Positions 50,894 through 58,334 of a stretch of 64,000 nt of DNA are shown one piece after another. The notes below the pieces were generated by a model. The model did no database searches. It worked only from the letters and a program-made list of their open reading frames with translations, and had not been told where the DNA came from. Each line of letters starts with the position of its first letter. Positions within the stretch are counted from its first letter, which is position 1. This stretch comes from Erysipelotrichaceae bacterium (GTDB lineage: Bacteria; Bacillota_I; Bacilli_A; Erysipelotrichales; Erysipelotrichaceae): NCBI GenBank assembly GCA_017431225.1, contig JAFRLM010000015.1, forward strand, positions 1 through 64,000, read 5' to 3'. The position numbers and the translations under genes were made by a program.

Positions 50894-52087
50894 ATGAAAA
50901 ACGAAATCACTGAATCTGTATTAAAGAAGTTTGCCGATGAGTATGAAAACGATCCGGTACAGAAGGCAGTCCGCCGTGTCCTTTACCGCACAAAGCTGAA
51001 CGAAGCCGCGTTAGTCCAGGAGAATGAAGGCAAGATCGCTGACCGCTTCTCGATCGACATCAAGACGCTGCCGGTCACCAACCAGAGACAGTCCGGCCGC
51101 TGCTGGATCTTCTCCGCGCTGAATACCCTTCGTGAAGATACAGCAACGAAACTGAAACTCGAGAAATTCGAATTCTCCCAGAACTATATCGCTTTCTGGG
51201 ATAAGCTCGAAAAGATCAATTTCTATATGGAATCCGTCATTGAGCTTGCGGACAGAGAATGGGATGACCGCACTTTAGACTGGATCAACCGCTGGGGCGT
51301 CGGTGACGGCGGCCAGTGGGATATGTTCACCGCTCTCGTTGAGAAATACGGTCTGGTCCCGAAAGACGCGATGCCGGAGACCGCTTCCTCCAACGCCACC
51401 AGAACGATCAACACACTGACCAACCGCCGTCTGCGCCGTTTCTGCGCCGATGTCAAGGCGGCCAACGGCGATAAGGAAAGGATTGCTGCCCTCAAGGAAG
51501 AATGCCTGAACGAGCTCTACCGCATGCAGTGCAGCTGCTTCGGTGTTCCGCCGAAGAAATTCGATTTCGAATATGTCGACAAGGATAAGAAGTATCACTG
51601 TGTCAAAGGTCTGACACCGAAGTCCTTCTTCAAGAAATATGTTGACTGGGATTTCTCGGACTATGTATCCATGATCCATGCCCCGACCGAAGACAAGCCG
51701 TATTACAAGCGCTATACCGTCAAGTACCTCGGCAATGTCGTCGGCAAGAAGGTCAAGCACCTGAACCTGCCGTTAGGCGAATTCAAGAAGGCTGTCATCG
51801 ACCAGCTGAAAGACGGCAAGGTCGTCTGGTTCGGTTCCGACTGCTCTCCGTTCGGCGACCGCCAGGGAGGCTACTGGGCACCGGAAGCCTTTGATTACGA
51901 ATCGCTCTTCAATATCGATTTCCGGATCAATAAGGAAGATGCCCTGAATTCCAGAGAAAGCGCGATGAACCACGCGATGGTCATCACCGGTGTCAACCTC
52001 GACGATGACAAACCGACCAAGTGGAAGATCGAGAACAGCTGGGGCGATGAGATCGCTCATAAGGGTTACTTCGTTGCCAGCGACTAA
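50894..52087 (+). CDS. pepC: Aminopeptidase C (bleomycin hydrolase family), truncated by an in-frame stop
   Basis: A 397-residue C1-family cysteine peptidase. The catalytic triad is intact: C70 (NQRQSGRCWIF), H360 (NHAMVITGV) and N381 (ENSWGDE). The frame ends at TAA 52085-52087 after GYFVASD, but the same frame continues for 42 more codons (starting WFDRYVYQAV and ending WDPMGTLAD) that match the normal PepC C-terminus, where Glu is expected at the stop. In bleomycin hydrolases the C-terminal arm reaches the active site and sets exopeptidase specificity, so a truncated enzyme could be altered or inactive. AAGGAG lies 9 bases before the ATG. Confidence 0.85.
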   Translation: MKNEITESVLKKFADEYENDPVQKAVRRVLYRTKLNEAALVQENEGKIADRFSIDIKTLPVTNQRQSGRCWIFSALNTLREDTATKLKLEKFEFSQNYIAFWDKLEKINFYMESVIELADREWDDRTLDWINRWGVGDGGQWDMFTALVEKYGLVPKDAMPETASSNATRTINTLTNRRLRRFCADVKAANGDKERIAALKEECLNELYRMQCSCFGVPPKKFDFEYVDKDKKYHCVKGLTPKSFFKKYVDWDFSDYVSMIHAPTEDKPYYKRYTVKYLGNVVGKKVKHLNLPLGEFKKAVIDQLKDGKVVWFGSDCSPFGDRQGGYWAPEAFDYESLFNIDFRINKEDALNSRESAMNHAMVITGVNLDDDKPTKWKIENSWGDEIAHKGYFVASD

Positions 52088-52216
52088 TGGTTTGACCGCT
52101 ATGTCTACCAGGCTGTCGTCAACAAGAAGTACCTCAGCAGCAAGGCTGTCAAGGCGCTCAACACTAAGCTTGTCGAGCTCGAACCCTGGGATCCGATGGG
52201 AACTCTGGCTGACTAA
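52085..52216 (+). pseudogene. pepC: Separated C-terminal part of pepC after the in-frame TAA
   Basis: Begins with the TAA at 52085-52087 and runs in the same frame to TAA 52214-52216. The sequence is well conserved (YVYQAVVNKKYLSSKAV) with no other stop, and no start codon or ribosome binding site of its own. Intact pepC would be 440 residues. A GAA or GAG to TAA change, a sequencing error, or stop-codon readthrough would explain it. Confidence 0.8.
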
Positions 52217-52244
52217 GCTGAGCACGAATCTTTTAAAACGAACG

Positions 52245-52279
52245 AAAGCTGAACCGTTCTCGACGGTTCAGCTTTTTTT
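52245..52279 (+). terminator. pepC terminator
   Basis: AAAGCTGAACCGT-TCTCG-ACGGTTCAGCTTT, a perfect 13-bp stem, then TTTT. The promoter of the next gene starts in its loop. Confidence 0.9.
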
Positions 52280-52288
52280 CTGTACAAT
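52260..52288 (+). promoter_or_regulatory. Promoter of the DEAD-box helicase gene, leaderless type
   Basis: -35 TCGACG (52260-52265, in the terminator loop), 17-base spacer, -10 TACAAT (52283-52288), then 6 bases (GTAGCC) to the ATG. Confidence 0.5.
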
Positions 52289-52294
52289 GTAGCC

Positions 52295-53644
52295 ATGGCA
52301 AAAACAGAATTAAGAGAAGAGACCCGGAAGTTCTTTGAACTGAACGGTTTCCGTGAATTTACGAGTATCCAGAAAATGGTCCTCGAGACGAGACGCCGCA
52401 AGAAGGATCTGATCGCCGTCGGCGCGACCGGAACCGGCAAGACCCATGCTTTTCTGTTCGCGGTATCTGAGATCATCGACCCGGAAAAGGATGAGACCCA
52501 GGTCATCATCAGTGCCCCGACCAGAGAGCTGGCGTTCCAGATCAACTCCGCGGCCGCGGTGCTGAAAGAAGTCTATCCGGGACTGCGCGTCAAGATGCTC
52601 AGCGGCGGTACGGACAGCACCCGTGCCCGTCAGGGCTTCAAGAACGCTCCGCATATCATCATCGGCACCCCGGGCAGGATCCGTTCCTTCTTTGAGGAAC
52701 AGCTTTTCCGTACCGATACGGTCCGCATGTTTATTATCGATGAAGCGGATATGACACTCGAATACGGTTTCCTGGATGACATCGACGTCGTCCTCGGCCG
52801 TGTTCCCCAGGAAGCAGAGATCCTCTGCTTCAGCGCGACGCTTCCTGAAGGACTTAAACCCTTCATCGCCAAATACCTCAGCAATCCCGAGATCCTGAAG
52901 GTCGAAGGGGAGAAGACCGCTCCCCAGATCGATCACATCCTGATCGACGCCAAGCACCGCAGCTATGCCGAAGCGCTGCTGACGATCCTGCCGGGATTTG
53001 ATCCCTATGTCTGTCTGATCTTCGCGAACACCCGTGAGGAATGCGATTCCGCGTATGAGCTGCTGCGTCAGAACGGCATCCGCTGTCTCGAACTGCACGG
53101 TGGTCTCAATCCGCGTGAGCGTTCCAAAGTCATGCGCGCTCTCAAGAACGATGAGGTGCGCTATGTCGTCGCTTCCGACGTTGCTTCCCGCGGTATCGAT
53201 ATCGAAGGCATCACTCATGTCGTCTCGCTCGGTTTCCCGAAGGAGCTCGCTTTCTATACGCACCGTGCCGGCCGTACCGGACGCAACGGCAGGGAAGGCA
53301 CCTGCTTCGCGATCTTCAACAAGACCGATGAGAACGCGATCCGCACACTCCGCAAACAGGGCATCGAATTCCGTTACCGCTCCTTCAAGAACGGGGAGTG
53401 GAAGGATCTGAAGGATCCCTTTGCCGGACGTATCTCCAAGGATGATCTCCGTGAAAAAGAGATCGCCAAACGCTTCACGCCCAAAAAGCAGAAGGTCAAA
53501 CCGAATTATAAAAAGAAGAGACGCCAGCTGGTCGAGGAGACCAAGCGCAAGGAACGCCGCGACTTCATCCGTTCCAAGATCAACGAGGAGAAGAAACAGC
53601 GTTACCGCGCGGCTGCGCGCGCAAAAAAAGAGGAGAAGGATTAA
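52295..53644 (+). CDS. cshB: DEAD-box RNA helicase, CshB-like
   Basis: A 449-residue helicase. Q motif FTSIQ, motif I GATGTGKT, Ia PTRELA, motif II DEAD, motif III SAT and motif VI HRAGRTGR are all present, and a Lys/Arg-rich tail of about 70 residues follows the core, as in cold-shock RNA helicases that act on ribosome assembly and mRNA. Closeness to ispH resembles the B. subtilis yqf region, where cshB (yqfR) lies. The ATG is 6 bases from a -10 box. The last codons form a palindrome with the convergent gene. Confidence 0.88.
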   Translation: MAKTELREETRKFFELNGFREFTSIQKMVLETRRRKKDLIAVGATGTGKTHAFLFAVSEIIDPEKDETQVIISAPTRELAFQINSAAAVLKEVYPGLRVKMLSGGTDSTRARQGFKNAPHIIIGTPGRIRSFFEEQLFRTDTVRMFIIDEADMTLEYGFLDDIDVVLGRVPQEAEILCFSATLPEGLKPFIAKYLSNPEILKVEGEKTAPQIDHILIDAKHRSYAEALLTILPGFDPYVCLIFANTREECDSAYELLRQNGIRCLELHGGLNPRERSKVMRALKNDEVRYVVASDVASRGIDIEGITHVVSLGFPKELAFYTHRAGRTGRNGREGTCFAIFNKTDENAIRTLRKQGIEFRYRSFKNGEWKDLKDPFAGRISKDDLREKEIAKRFTPKKQKVKPNYKKKRRQLVEETKRKERRDFIRSKINEEKKQRYRAAARAKKEEKD

Positions 53645-53653
53645 TCCTTCTCC
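53632..53653. repeat. Perfect 22-bp palindrome across the shared stop codons
   Basis: GGAGAAGGATT followed by its exact complement, centred on TTAA (53641-53644), where both convergent genes stop. Each gene reads GAG AAG GAT TAA, so both proteins end Glu-Lys-Asp. As RNA it could fold into a 9-bp stem with a UUAA loop on either transcript; no T-run follows. Confidence 0.9.
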
Positions 53654-56088
53654 AGCAGTTCTTTAAGATCCTGAAGGGGACGGTTCGCCGGCGCGTTATG
53701 CACCGGAGGAGCCGTCTTTTCTTTTGTCTCACTGATCCGTTTCCAGAATTCCGCCGAGGAAAGTCTTCTGACCGGACGGCTGAAGACAGCCAGCTGGACC
53801 AGACGGTCGGAACTGACGACGTGCAGACGGTAGTGTTTCGCCAGCAGTTCGGTATTCTCCTGGATGTAGCGGTCGGCGGACTGATCCTTGCCGGTAAAGA
53901 TGACGGTCAGATCATCGCTTCTGGTCAGGGTGGGGATGCTGCGGTCGCGGTTATAGGCGTCGAATACGACGATCAGCCGTGCCTGCAGATACCCCTGGGC
54001 ATCCGCCAGTTTATCGATCAGACGGATGCGCGCGTTATAGAGATCGCTTTTGGCGATCGCGTCGCATTCGGGATCGGCATGCAGAAGGTTGTAGCCATCG
54101 ATCAGATAAGCGTTCTCTTTTGTGACGGATTCCTTGATATCGACATGGGCCGGTTCTTCCTTGGCCGGCTTCGGTCTTTCTTTTTCACTTACCCGTTCCT
54201 TGTCCTTATGGGTCATAGCCCAGACCCGGCGCAGTTCACTGTCGGAGATCTTCTGGGGATTGTATAAAGGAGTATGCGGCTGATTGATACCGAGGTATTC
54301 TTCGACTTCACTGCCGCGGACTTCAAGGATCTTCCCGCTTTTCTGGAAGATCGAGGAAGAGCTTCCGGAGATCTCATTGCGCATCTCGGGCTCCGGGGTC
54401 GGTGAGGGCAGATACATCTCTTCAACAAGTTCCGCTTCAAGTCCCGTACGGCTGAGCTCCTCGATCAGAGAGAAACTGTCTCTGGCCGGACACAGGAAGA
54501 GGAAACCATTCTCTGTTTCTTCGTACTGGATATTGCGCCGCGCGAAGAACATGTGCAGTTCTTCCTTATCTTCTGTTTCCAGGCGGTAGCGGACAAAGTC
54601 CTCGATCAGCAGGTTGCCGGCTTTTTCCTGTCCCTGGTTGATCGCCCGGTAAAGTGCCTCGCGGCATTCCTCATAGGCGTCCTGACGGCTCGTGGTGATC
54701 GAAAGGATCTCGATCCGCATCGCTTTTAAAGGCAGACCGCTGCGGAAGCCGAGCGGCGGATTATAACGCAGTTCTTCAAGAAGTCTATGACTCAGCGGCT
54801 GATGCGCCAGGTCGGCAGCCTCCATTTCTTTATCATATTCAAGCGGCAGCAGATCAACGGTGACTTCCGCACTGCGGGTAAGCGATTCATAATGGGCCAC
54901 ACCGGTCTCTTCATTCGTGATCGTTTCGTAATAGGGATAGACGATCTCTGAAAGCAGCGGACGATAACCGTAGCGCTCCTCAAAGTCCTGTAAGAAGATC
55001 TCGGCTGCCAGCAGTCCCGGCAGGGAGACGGTCAGCACGTTTTTCCGCGGATCGAAGTCACTGCCGATCTCGGGATGTTCCTGGCCGATCTCACGCAGTT
55101 TCAGATAGAGGGCGCTGTTGTCCTCACGCTCCGAAGAGAGGATGAAGCGTAGGGAGCCCTTGCGTTTTTCCTTTTCGACCGCGCGGGGCGGATAGTAGGA
55201 AGGCGCCTCGCATTTCAAGCCTTTGACAGCGCAGAGCTCGCCGGCCATGGCTTCACTGACATTCTCGTATTTCACGCCGTTATAGAGACGGATCTCCTCG
55301 ATCTTGGCTCCGTCAACGACGTCCTTGACTTTTAAGCGGCCGCCGAGCATTTTCAGGAAATGCATCTTCTCGCGGCCGATCTTCGCGTATTTATAGACAT
55401 AGAAGGAAGGATCTTCGCCTTCCTCGCGCTGTGCTTTGAAGGACTCAAGCCAGGGCAGGAGTTCCATGATCCCTTCTTCCTTTAAAGCGGAACCGAAGAA
55501 GCAGGGGATATAGACACGGCGCGCAAAAAGATCCTGCTTCAGGGCAAAATCGACAGTGCCGTCGCGCAGATACTGTTCAAGAACTTTTTCATCGTTCAAA
55601 GCTGCCAGATCGTTGAGTTCCTCCTCGGTCACGATCAGCGGGGAAAGCTCTTCCTTGATACGTTTGCGCAGTTCCTGGGGATCCCCGCGGAAACGGTCCA
55701 TCTTATTGACGAACACCAGCATCGGGATCTGCTGGGATAAAAGCTCGGCAAAGATCTGTCTGGTCGCCCGGCTGATATCTTCCGAGGCCGGCAGGATCAG
55801 AAGGGCGAGATCGATCGCCTTGACTGCCCGCCGGCGTTCCGGGGCAAAGTCCCGGTGACCCGGGGTATCGAGCAGGATCAGTTCCTTTTCCGCTAAAGTG
55901 ATACGGGCGCTTTTGACGGTGATCGTTATCCCGCGCTTACGCTCCTCACTGCCGTAATCCAGCAGAGAATCGCGGTTGTCAACACGGCCGGCTTTCGCCA
56001 GCATCCCGGTCGCGTGCAGAAGCGCTTCACAGAAGGTCGTTTTTCCGGCATCGACATCCGCGTAAATGCCCAGTACGGTCTTTTCCAT
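53641..56088 (-). CDS. EF-G/TetM-like translational GTPase fused to a Rae1/YacP-like NYN nuclease domain
   Basis: An 815-residue fusion. GTPase motifs: P-loop DVDAGKT (11-17), RGIT (52-55), DTPGH (74-78), NKMD (128-131), SA (200-201). Residues 225-560 resemble EF-G/TetM domains II-V. A charged linker (about 561-658) leads to an NYN domain (659-790) like YacP/Rae1, with likely catalytic acids D664 (IDGYN), D710 (VVFDA), D739 (SADR) and D761 (SSDR). Rae1 cuts mRNA in the ribosomal A site in B. subtilis; ribosomal-protection GTPases bind the same site. The P-loop has Asp where TetM has His (AHVDAGKT), and the domain IV loop region is short, so tetracycline resistance is doubtful. The start is 7 bases from a -10 box. 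Confidence 0.88.
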   Translation of the reverse strand: MEKTVLGIYADVDAGKTTFCEALLHATGMLAKAGRVDNRDSLLDYGSEERKRGITITVKSARITLAEKELILLDTPGHRDFAPERRRAVKAIDLALLILPASEDISRATRQIFAELLSQQIPMLVFVNKMDRFRGDPQELRKRIKEELSPLIVTEEELNDLAALNDEKVLEQYLRDGTVDFALKQDLFARRVYIPCFFGSALKEEGIMELLPWLESFKAQREEGEDPSFYVYKYAKIGREKMHFLKMLGGRLKVKDVVDGAKIEEIRLYNGVKYENVSEAMAGELCAVKGLKCEAPSYYPPRAVEKEKRKGSLRFILSSEREDNSALYLKLREIGQEHPEIGSDFDPRKNVLTVSLPGLLAAEIFLQDFEERYGYRPLLSEIVYPYYETITNEETGVAHYESLTRSAEVTVDLLPLEYDKEMEAADLAHQPLSHRLLEELRYNPPLGFRSGLPLKAMRIEILSITTSRQDAYEECREALYRAINQGQEKAGNLLIEDFVRYRLETEDKEELHMFFARRNIQYEETENGFLFLCPARDSFSLIEELSRTGLEAELVEEMYLPSPTPEPEMRNEISGSSSSIFQKSGKILEVRGSEVEEYLGINQPHTPLYNPQKISDSELRRVWAMTHKDKERVSEKERPKPAKEEPAHVDIKESVTKENAYLIDGYNLLHADPECDAIAKSDLYNARIRLIDKLADAQGYLQARLIVVFDAYNRDRSIPTLTRSDDLTVIFTGKDQSADRYIQENTELLAKHYRLHVVSSDRLVQLAVFSRPVRRLSSAEFWKRISETKEKTAPPVHNAPANRPLQDLKELLEKD

Positions 56089-56095
56089 AACTCTT

Positions 56096-56124
56096 ATTTT
56101 ACGGAAGACGTCTGTTTCTGTGAA
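56096..56124 (-). promoter_or_regulatory. Promoter of the GTPase-NYN fusion gene, leaderless type
   Basis: Minus strand -35 TTCACA (56119-56124), 17-base spacer, -10 TAAAAT (56096-56101), 7 bases before the ATG at 56088. Confidence 0.65.
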
Positions 56125-56133
56125 TAGACAAAG

Positions 56134-56142
56134 TGTTACAAT
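56134..56142 (+). promoter_or_regulatory. Extended -10 of rimO, leaderless type
   Basis: TGT-TACAAT (56134-56142) with 6 bases (AAAGAC) before the ATG. The -35 position (about 56114-56119) overlaps the -35 of the divergent fusion gene. Confidence 0.55.
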
Positions 56143-56148
56143 AAAGAC

Positions 56149-57456
56149 ATGTTAAATGTTGGATTTATATCATTGGGCTGTTCGAAGAATCTGGTCGATT
56201 CCGAACGTATCATCGCGCTTTTTAAGGACGGCTTCCGGGTGGAAAATGACCCCTCCAAATGTGATGTCATCCTGATCAATACCTGCGGTTTCATCCTCTC
56301 TGCCAAGGAGGAAGCGATCGACACGATCCTGGAGATGGCCGCCTACAAAAAGGACCGTCTGAAAAAGCTGATCGTCTGCGGCTGCTTTGTCCAGCGTTAT
56401 TTTGAGGAATGCAAAGAGGAATTCCCGGAAGTCGATGCCTTTATCCGCATCGACGACTACGACCGGATCACCGAGATCCTCGGGGAAGTCCTTGAACATG
56501 ATTTCTCCGGCTGCGACCGGAACGAAAGAACGCTCTTAACGCCGTCGCACTTTGCCTATCTGCGCATCGCCGACGGCTGCAATCACCGCTGCGCTTACTG
56601 CGCGATCCCCGGCATCCGCGGCAACTATGTTTCTGAGCCTCTGGAAAAACTCATCGAAGAGGCGAAGAAGCTTTCCACTGCCGGTGTGAAGGAGCTTGAT
56701 CTGATCGCCCAGGACTGCGCCTACTACGGACGCGATCTCTATAAGCACTGCGCTTTGAGCGAGCTTTTAGCCGAACTCGATAAGATGGATTTCACCTGGA
56801 TCCGGATGCTGTATCTTTATCCGGAAGAGATCGACGAAAAACTGCTGAAGACGATCAGAGATTCAAAACACGTTCTGCCGTATTTCGATATGCCGGTGCA
56901 GTACGGTTCCGACAGGATCCTGCGCAGCATGCGCCGCCCCACGAACGTGAAGATGCTGAAGGAGAAATTCGCCCTGATCCATTCCTATTTCAACGGCGAG
57001 GAGACCATGCGCACGACGATGATGGTCGGCTTCCCGGGCGAAGAGGAAAAGGATTTTGAAGAAACGATGGAATTCGTCAAGGAATGCCGTTTTGACTCCC
57101 TGGGCGCTTTCACCTATTCAAGAGAAGAAGGAACTCCGAGCTACGATTTCCCCGACCAGGTCGAGGAGGAGCTCAAGGAGGAACGATACGAAAAACTGAT
57201 GGCGCTTCAGCAGGAAGTCGTCACCGAAAAGAACCAGCAGCGTGTCGGCCGGGTCTATCCGGTCCTGGTCGAACAGAACGACCCGCTGCGCCGCCTTTCC
57301 TACGGCCGGGCGGCCTTTGCCGCGCCGGAAGGAGTGGATCCGGCTCTGATCATCCGTCATGCCGGACATCTCCCGATAGGGGAATTCGTGAATGTTAAGA
57401 TCGAAAAGGCGGATGCTTATGAATTCTACGGAAGTGTTCAGGAGGAAACAGTATGA
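56149..57456 (+). CDS. rimO: Ribosomal protein S12 methylthiotransferase RimO
   Basis: A 435-residue radical-SAM methylthiotransferase. N-terminal cluster ligands C11, C46 and C79; radical-SAM ligands C144-x3-C148-x2-C151 (DGCNHRCAYCAIP); C-terminal TRAM domain. The FISLGCSKNLVDSE start and LYLYPEEID segment distinguish RimO from MiaB. It modifies an Asp of S12 near the decoding centre. Its stop overlaps the next gene as ATGA, so it leads a run with the ROK kinase, galM and galK. Confidence 0.95.
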   Translation: MLNVGFISLGCSKNLVDSERIIALFKDGFRVENDPSKCDVILINTCGFILSAKEEAIDTILEMAAYKKDRLKKLIVCGCFVQRYFEECKEEFPEVDAFIRIDDYDRITEILGEVLEHDFSGCDRNERTLLTPSHFAYLRIADGCNHRCAYCAIPGIRGNYVSEPLEKLIEEAKKLSTAGVKELDLIAQDCAYYGRDLYKHCALSELLAELDKMDFTWIRMLYLYPEEIDEKLLKTIRDSKHVLPYFDMPVQYGSDRILRSMRRPTNVKMLKEKFALIHSYFNGEETMRTTMMVGFPGEEEKDFEETMEFVKECRFDSLGAFTYSREEGTPSYDFPDQVEEELKEERYEKLMALQQEVVTEKNQQRVGRVYPVLVEQNDPLRRLSYGRAAFAAPEGVDPALIIRHAGHLPIGEFVNVKIEKADAYEFYGSVQEETV

Positions 57457-58334
57457 AAAAATCGATCGGCGTCGACCTCGGCGGTACCAGTGTCCGCACC
57501 GCGATCGTCGACAGCGAAGGAAAGATCCTGAAAGATCTTAAGGAAAGCAGCTACGCCAAGGAAGGTCCTTCTGTCGTCTTATCCCATATCGCGGACATGA
57601 TCGAGAGTCTCGGCGATATCTCGGATTGCGAAGGCATCGGTATCGGTGTCCCGGGACCGGTCGACAGCGAACGCAAAGTCATGACTTTAGCGACCAATCT
57701 GCCCGGTTTTGCCGGTTATCCGATCGCCAGCGTGCTGGAAGAACGCTTTAAACTGCCGGTCTTCGTCGGCAACGACGCCAATGCCGCCGGTCTTGCGGAA
57801 GCTTTGGTCGGTGCCGGCAAAGGCAAGAAGATCGTTTACTATGTCACCCAGTCCACCGGGATCGGGGGCGCTCTGATCATCAACGGCAAGGTCGTTTCCG
57901 GTAAGAACGGCTATGCCGGAGAGATCGGCAATATCATCATCGACCGCGACCGCAAAAAGATCAATGGCCTGAATATCGGCGCAGTGGAGAGCGAGGCTTC
58001 CGGTACGGCTATCGGCCGTTACGGCAAGGAAGCGCTCGGTGTCGAGACAGCGATCGATGTCTTTGATCTGGCCCGCAAAGGCGATGAGAAAGCCTGGGCG
58101 ATCATCGAGAGAATGAGCGAAGATTTCGCGCAGCTTTTGGCAACGATCGCGCATGTCGTTGATCCGGATATCTTCGTGATCGGCGGCGGCTGCAGCAATG
58201 CCTCCGACCTCTATTTCGACAAGGTCCGTGTCTACTATGATCAGATGGTGCACCCTGCGATGCGCGGGGTACCGATCGAAAGAGCTGTCTTAAAGGAACC
58301 GGGCGTGCTCGGCGCGGCGTTCTTCGTGGAATGA
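57453..58334 (+). CDS. ROK-family sugar kinase (glucokinase-like)
   Basis: A 293-residue ROK protein. ATP-binding GVDLGGTSVRTA (6-17), GIGVPGPVD and the catalytic region GNDANAAGLAEAL are clear. The usual ROK zinc motif is missing: the GEIGH position reads GEIGN, and the CxCGxxGCxE stretch reads INGLNIGAVESE. It therefore belongs to a zinc-free ROK subgroup; the substrate may be glucose or another hexose. AGGAGG lies 7 bases before the ATG. galM begins 1 base after the stop. Confidence 0.82.
   Translation: MKKSIGVDLGGTSVRTAIVDSEGKILKDLKESSYAKEGPSVVLSHIADMIESLGDISDCEGIGIGVPGPVDSERKVMTLATNLPGFAGYPIASVLEERFKLPVFVGNDANAAGLAEALVGAGKGKKIVYYVTQSTGIGGALIINGKVVSGKNGYAGEIGNIIIDRDRKKINGLNIGAVESEASGTAIGRYGKEALGVETAIDVFDLARKGDEKAWAIIERMSEDFAQLLATIAHVVDPDIFVIGGGCSNASDLYFDKVRVYYDQMVHPAMRGVPIERAVLKEPGVLGAAFFVE

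Follow-up and report, generated by a model that had tools for sequence, protein, structure and literature searches.

The window analysed here is a stretch of 64,000 nucleotides from an Erysipelotrichaceae bacterium (assembly GCA_017431225.1, contig JAFRLM010000015.1, positions 1 to 64,000). At 53641-56088 its minus strand carries a single open reading frame (ORF) of 815 codons plus stop, starting with ATG, which encodes a translational GTPase joined in one chain to a nuclease domain of the NYN_YacP/Rae1 type. We consider it probable that the product is a chromosomal, vertically kept translation factor, in which a relocated Rae1 has been joined to a GTPase of the TetM/EF-G fold, with the nuclease as the core and the GTPase as an accessory for delivery or release. 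The gene and its parts are the following:

53641..56088, minus strand: complete GTPase-NYN fusion gene, 815 amino acids (aa) plus stop; same gene and gene order in congener L038
55447..56088, minus strand: G domain, residues 1-214, with motifs G1-G5 and the catalytic-type His78 (Pfam GTP_EFTU at residues 6-214, E 3e-42; alignment of 34 fusions)
56056..56058, minus strand: codon of D11 (in the alignment His in 31/34 fusions, Asp only in the window and L038, Ala in L037)
54949..55446, minus strand: domains II and III, residues 215-380, boundaries approximate (predicted structure with EF-G match; Pfam EF-G_D2 and EFG_III in relatives)
54598..54948, minus strand: domain IV, residues 381-497, boundaries approximate (predicted structure with EF-G match; Pfam EFG_IV in relatives)
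54664..54699, minus strand: domain IV tip loop, residues 464-475, AHxKHTEGGDF motif eroded and one residue shorter (aligned with relatives, TetM and EF-G)
54409..54597, minus strand: domain V, residues 498-560, the least conserved part, boundaries approximate (alignment and predicted structure; Pfam EFG_C in relatives)
54283..54408, minus strand: C-terminal extension of the GTPase, residues 561-602, equivalent of GSIFCxHGAGxxVxWxEVxxYMH (alignment)
54115..54282, minus strand: linker, residues 603-658, mostly disordered, with a short conserved helix at about 615-632 (predicted local distance difference test, pLDDT; motif in 34 fusions)
53719..54114, minus strand: NYN_YacP/Rae1-like nuclease domain, residues 659-790 (Pfam NYN_YacP at residues 662-799, E 5e-30, 105 bits against a gathering cut-off of 24.6; Rae1 sequence and fold matches)
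54097..54099, minus strand: codon of D664, aligned with Rae1 D7
53959..53961, minus strand: codon of D710, aligned with Rae1 D53
53872..53874, minus strand: codon of D739, aligned with Rae1 D81
53806..53808, minus strand: codon of D761, aligned with Rae1 D104

A preliminary description, made from the letters of the sequence, had proposed a GTPase followed by an NYN domain, and both Pfam and the predicted structure confirm this order. Domains II-V, too diverged in the window copy to be found by Pfam, are detected by it in relatives. In an AlphaFold2 model of the fusion (17 sequences in the alignment, mean pLDDT 74.8), residues 1-572 match whole EF-G chains with Z up to 28, and the comparison with ribosome-bound TetM (3j9y) gave a Z of 25.8 with 498 residues aligned; the root-mean-square deviation to EF-G entries is large, about 21 Å, because the interdomain angles of the model are unsettled. 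The five-domain fold of the EF-G/TetM type is predicted to be complete in residues 1-572, with the domains II-V that the description had assigned present in the model. An assembly-joined chimera, which the same description had considered, is ruled out by the homologous gene in matching gene order in the congener G161 (L038), whose product of 813 aa is 81% identical along its length. A further homologue, that of G105 (L037), is 41% identical to the window fusion.

Folded alone, the NYN domain reached a pLDDT of 84.3, and Foldseek with this model returned Rae1 of Bacillus subtilis on top (5mq9, E 4.5e-9; 5mq8, E 2.3e-8), followed by 5'-nucleases; by sequence, too, this part matches that of the Rae1 crystal structure 5mq8 (E 1e-13). 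The C-terminus is Rae1-like, as had been claimed, and its acidic set is full, since the four Asp residues aligned with those of Rae1 (D664, D710, D739 and D761) are invariant in 34 fusions. Residues D13, K16, T55, D74, H78, N128 and D131 of the G domain are invariant in the same 34 fusions, including that of the window. The linker, formerly described simply as charged, is predicted to be disordered over residues 600-655 (pLDDT 31-37 at 600-650), yet it contains a predicted helix at 617-626 with the conserved pattern ISDxELxRVxxxTxxxKxR. The helix consensus, ISDEELxRVFxxTxGxxKR, can be recognised in Clostridia fusions as well as in Erysipelotrichales-like ones, and it persists in the shortened forms described below.

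Whole genomes were searched for NYN_YacP, and fused domains were told apart from stand-alone ones by the length of the open frame. In the window's order the domain was present in 140 of 196 genomes with 141 matches, about 127 of which lie in frames of at least 700 aa. Eight of the shorter frames were inspected, three being located at contig ends, one being split (G045) and four representing shortened forms of the genus g4, a member of the window's family. In G045 (L190), the GTPase and the NYN domain lie in adjacent, different frames, as would result from a frameshift, a sequencing error or gene fission. The rest of the class and phylum samples gave matches above the cut-off only as fusion-sized frames in one other family (f9). 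Among 291 genomes of Clostridia, 104 have the fusion and 84 an NYN domain not joined to this GTPase, and every GTPase of at least 734 aa occurs in a genome with an NYN match. In Bacilli, NYN_YacP was found in 117 of 121 genomes, stand-alone in at least 113 of these 117 and in no case in a fusion-sized frame, the frames being short with a few of 340-430 aa. With few exceptions there is one NYN domain per genome. Two matches each were seen in the Clostridia genomes G754, G757, G822 and G863, those of G754 being two fusions of 894 and 890 aa.

In the window's own genome, which is 86% complete, the fusion is the sole NYN_YacP found. Genomes with the fusion mostly lack a separate yacP, a point raised in the preliminary description and answered by the genome counts and by an operon without yacP (see below), and the fusion is the usual form of the Rae1 nuclease in many gut bacteria. 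The GTPase was absent from all 21 NYN-less genomes of the window's order that were tested, where best matches did not exceed 183 bits versus 374-662 bits for true members. Fusions 46-50% identical to L041 were also seen on two unannotated, unverified "Bacteriophage sp." scaffolds from human stool (MT835563.1 and MT835514.1; L186); a phage origin was set aside, as the scaffolds were judged more likely to be bacterial DNA.

Rae1 attacks mRNA in the ribosomal A site (PMC12320835, PMC6613710), and it is by analogy with this activity that we infer mRNA cleavage by the fusion, as we do ribosome binding and GTPase activity from its fold and intact G motifs. The GTPase would engage the ribosomal factor-binding site; after GTP hydrolysis, or the exit of domain IV from the A site, the tethered NYN domain would enter and cut mRNA in or near the A site of the same ribosome. 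The truncated mRNA would then pass to exonucleases and to tmRNA, which is present in the own genome, and the GTPase would act as an accessory delivery or release module, lost partly or wholly in some relatives. When TetM sits on the ribosome, its domain IV occupies the A site, which Rae1 would also require. Because a TetM-like domain IV itself fills this site, the two halves would more plausibly act in turn, the protein binding, hydrolysing GTP and withdrawing domain IV before the NYN domain enters. Such an order of events, like a physiological trigger or any role in ribosome rescue, is inferred.

Several points weigh against this proposal. By analogy, TetM domain IV and Rae1 would compete for one A site. 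In the window's genus the tip of domain IV no longer carries its motif, and the divergence of the GTPase half has outpaced that of the NYN half, with branches of 2.41 and 0.68, respectively, in separate trees; for these reasons the GTPase of this genus may be weakened. In Clostridia, unfused GTPase and stand-alone yacP co-occur not above expectation (10 of 16 genomes, Fisher p 0.19), and this co-occurrence was therefore discarded as proof of a functional link. Compared with L041, the window protein is 13-21% identical in domains III and V and the extension versus 37-38% in the G and NYN domains; at the level of sequence, the window's genus shows relaxed constraint.

Shortened forms of the fusion were uncovered in the genus g4. 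Frames of 814-834 aa occur in five of its genomes, and one of these frames was aligned in full (L048, G117). In G006 and G100, with 594 and 603 aa, G-II-III leads into the linker and NYN domain, domains IV and V and the extension being absent, while G135 and G145 encode only 205 and 201 aa, made up of the linker helix and NYN; their loci hold no GTPase. The short forms lie at L191:3843-5627, L192:3752-5563, L188:4850-5455 and L189:2501-3118, and those reduced to linker helix and NYN adjoin a uracil-DNA glycosylase-like gene. Judged by their sequences, the forms of g4 make up a dismantling series, leading from the full fusion via G-II-III with NYN to the linker helix with NYN. The nuclease together with its linker helix would be the part retained by selection, because both persist in all short forms of this genus. 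As the GTPase seems dispensable to the nuclease, the "self-contained rescue machine" of the preliminary description goes beyond the evidence.

A tentative variant of the proposal is that the conserved linker helix, and not domain IV, does the docking, with the NYN domain taking the A-site place of domain IV, which would define a class of GTPase-delivered A-site nucleases; we regard it as possible but doubtful. If it is true, g4 would represent a stepwise dismantling of a full EF-G-like carrier to an RF3-like G-II-III carrier and finally to a linker helix with Rae1. The main rival to the proposed delivery or release by the GTPase is that this half is a mere ribosome anchor or a decaying relic, so that the protein would amount to Rae1 carrying an extra N-terminal part, and cutting would not involve GTP hydrolysis. 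The four short g4 genomes, two without domains IV-V and two without a GTPase at the locus, all retain NYN, which speaks for this explanation, and the eroded tip and uneven identities of the window protein, as well as the use of Rae1 without a fused GTPase in Bacilli, point in the same direction. However, none of the 34 fusions, that of the window included, departs from the G motifs or the catalytic-type His, and the full fusion is maintained across the window's order and much of Clostridia, so that we hold a passive GTPase to be rather unlikely.

The genomic position of yacP provides a further line of evidence for the relocation of Rae1. In Neobacillus, the gene order is cysS-mrnC-rlmB-yacP-sigH, while in the own genome a methyltransferase-like ORF and nusG come after cysS-mrnC-rlmB, and yacP is missing. 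By gene content, Rae1 has left its ancestral operon slot and persists as the fusion. The ORF after rlmB (contig C25, L185:5086-5514), which sits in the yacP slot of Bacilli, encodes 142 aa matching tRNA (guanine-1)-methyltransferase/SPOUT. Since yacP of Bacilli adjoins the rRNA methylase gene rlmB and the gene of mini-RNase III, one might think of a nuclease for rRNA or tRNA maturation with the GTPase as an assembly checkpoint, along the lines once proposed for NYN/YacP proteins (earlier proposal cited in PMC4342817). Yet B. subtilis Rae1 cuts mRNA on ribosomes (PMC12320835, PMC6613710), and the window's lineage no longer has the gene in the rlmB/mrnC operon, which makes a maturation role improbable.

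In the GTPase tree, where the Tet proteins comprised only TetM, TetO, TetS and a Tet36-like protein, fused and unfused relatives form one clade of 40 rows with a support of 100, apart from TetM/O/S. Its deeper forks are weak; its earliest branches are unfused copies of Neobacillus and Intestinibacter, and those of lactobacilli and actinobacteria, also unfused, fall among the fused ones, which suggests one fusion event followed by losses or transfers. The fused NYN domains mostly cluster in their own tree, showing several groupings in common with the GTPase tree. In the alignment, the GTPase subfamily shares GHFEPLRHYAEV. Its domain IV tip is histidine-rich and conserved (GHFEPLRHYAEVH and AHxKHTEGGDFR), unlike that of EF-G or TetM, the tip loop reading AHxKHTEGGDFR in the subfamily, YSPVSTPADF in TetM (loop III) and SYHxVDSSExAF in EF-G. 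The C-terminal extension GSIFCxHGAGxxVxWxEVxxYMH is common to fused and unfused relatives and absent from TetM and EF-G.

These features bear on whether the fusion is a ribosomal protection protein against tetracycline to which an RNase has been added. Its fold is that of TetM, such fusions were placed under Tet by Atkinson 2015, and RefSeq labels an Agathobacter fusion and the unfused L. salivarius homologue as "TetM/TetW/TetO/TetS family". On the other side, the NCBIfam model tet_protect gave 180 bits for the window protein and 374-441 for relatives, versus 877 for Tet(M) and a cut-off of 775. The position of TetM Pro509, which overlaps bound tetracycline (PMC7456112), is occupied by Lys in 35 of 41 subfamily rows; the window loop is one residue shorter, and shortening of the domain IV tip loop abolished the activity of Tet(M) and Tet(O) on tetracycline (PMC4750697). 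Furthermore, the gene is chromosomal, near-universal in its order and conserved in gene order within the genus, with no mobile context seen. Because the GTPase clade is separate from TetM/O/S and the domain IV tip is different, a role in resistance is unlikely, and we rate a protection protein with an added RNase as quite improbable. The RefSeq label is probably misleading, given the different tip loop and the scores below the cut-off. That the window protein is not a standard resistance protein, as previously stated, holds on the grounds of the tip loop and the score. The reason originally given, D11, does not, being a lineage-specific quirk of the genus where 31 of 34 fusions have His, and D11 was ruled out as a functional marker. 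Members of the subfamily were also encountered on large plasmids, namely L147 (Agathobacter), L146 (Monoglobus) and L148 (L. salivarius pMP118), two of them being annotated as tetracycline resistance.

At the locus, the fusion gene shares 4 nt with the end of a convergent DEAD-box helicase gene, and its start lies 60 nt from a divergent radical-SAM/TRAM gene, which is probably rimO. These neighbours are conserved within the genus only, no operon partner of the fusion gene was seen, and Rfam revealed no structured RNA at 52000-58000. A toxin or anti-phage effector, conceivable in that a nuclease fused to a translational GTPase could stop translation, is extremely improbable for a single-copy gene that is near-universal in the window's order, has no partner gene, keeps its neighbourhood only within the genus and matched nothing meaningful in PADLOC (top score 21 bits, from a generic GTPase hit).

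In ten Clostridiales species, Tet proteins were reported to have acquired a YacP-like NYN RNase domain, for which a resistance role was suggested (Atkinson 2015, PMC4342817). Like the window protein, they combine a TetM-like GTPase and, after it, a YacP-like NYN in a single chain, but here the GTPase falls outside the TetM/O/S clade, and the fusion is near-universal in another order and exists beside shortened forms. B. subtilis Rae1/YacP (5mq8, 5mq9) resembles the fusion in the Pfam match, fold and four acidic residues of its NYN domain, while being a stand-alone protein of ~170 aa that has neither the GTPase nor the linker and its helix. Tet(M), Tet(O) and Tet(S) share the EF-G-like five-domain fold and the G motifs, but the fusion has another domain IV tip and a C-terminal extension, and Tet proteins are usually mobile. 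The unfused GTPase homologues of Neobacillus, Intestinibacter, Collinsella, Bifidobacterium and L. salivarius belong to the same subfamily without NYN, having the tip AHxKHTxGGDFR (a variant in L. salivarius) and the extension FCxxGxGxxVxW. EF-G and RF3 have the fold in common with the fusion, the G-II-III forms with NYN in g4 showing an RF3-like domain set, but neither carries a nuclease. No experimental study of the fusion was found in the literature searched. The window protein is a diverged member of an architecture published in 2015, and the architecture is not new; what is new here is the near-total replacement of stand-alone Rae1 in the window's order, the operon loss and the separation from TetM, along with the conserved linker helix and the shortened forms.

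Automatic annotation may call the fusion a tetracycline-resistance gene in many gut bacteria although the drug-contacting loop is missing, and this could inflate resistance counts in metagenomes. For the biology of Rae1, the fusion makes it testable how the nuclease reaches the A site and whether a factor must first empty this site, and the natural forms without domains IV-V, or without a GTPase at the locus, represent ready-made deletion mutants.

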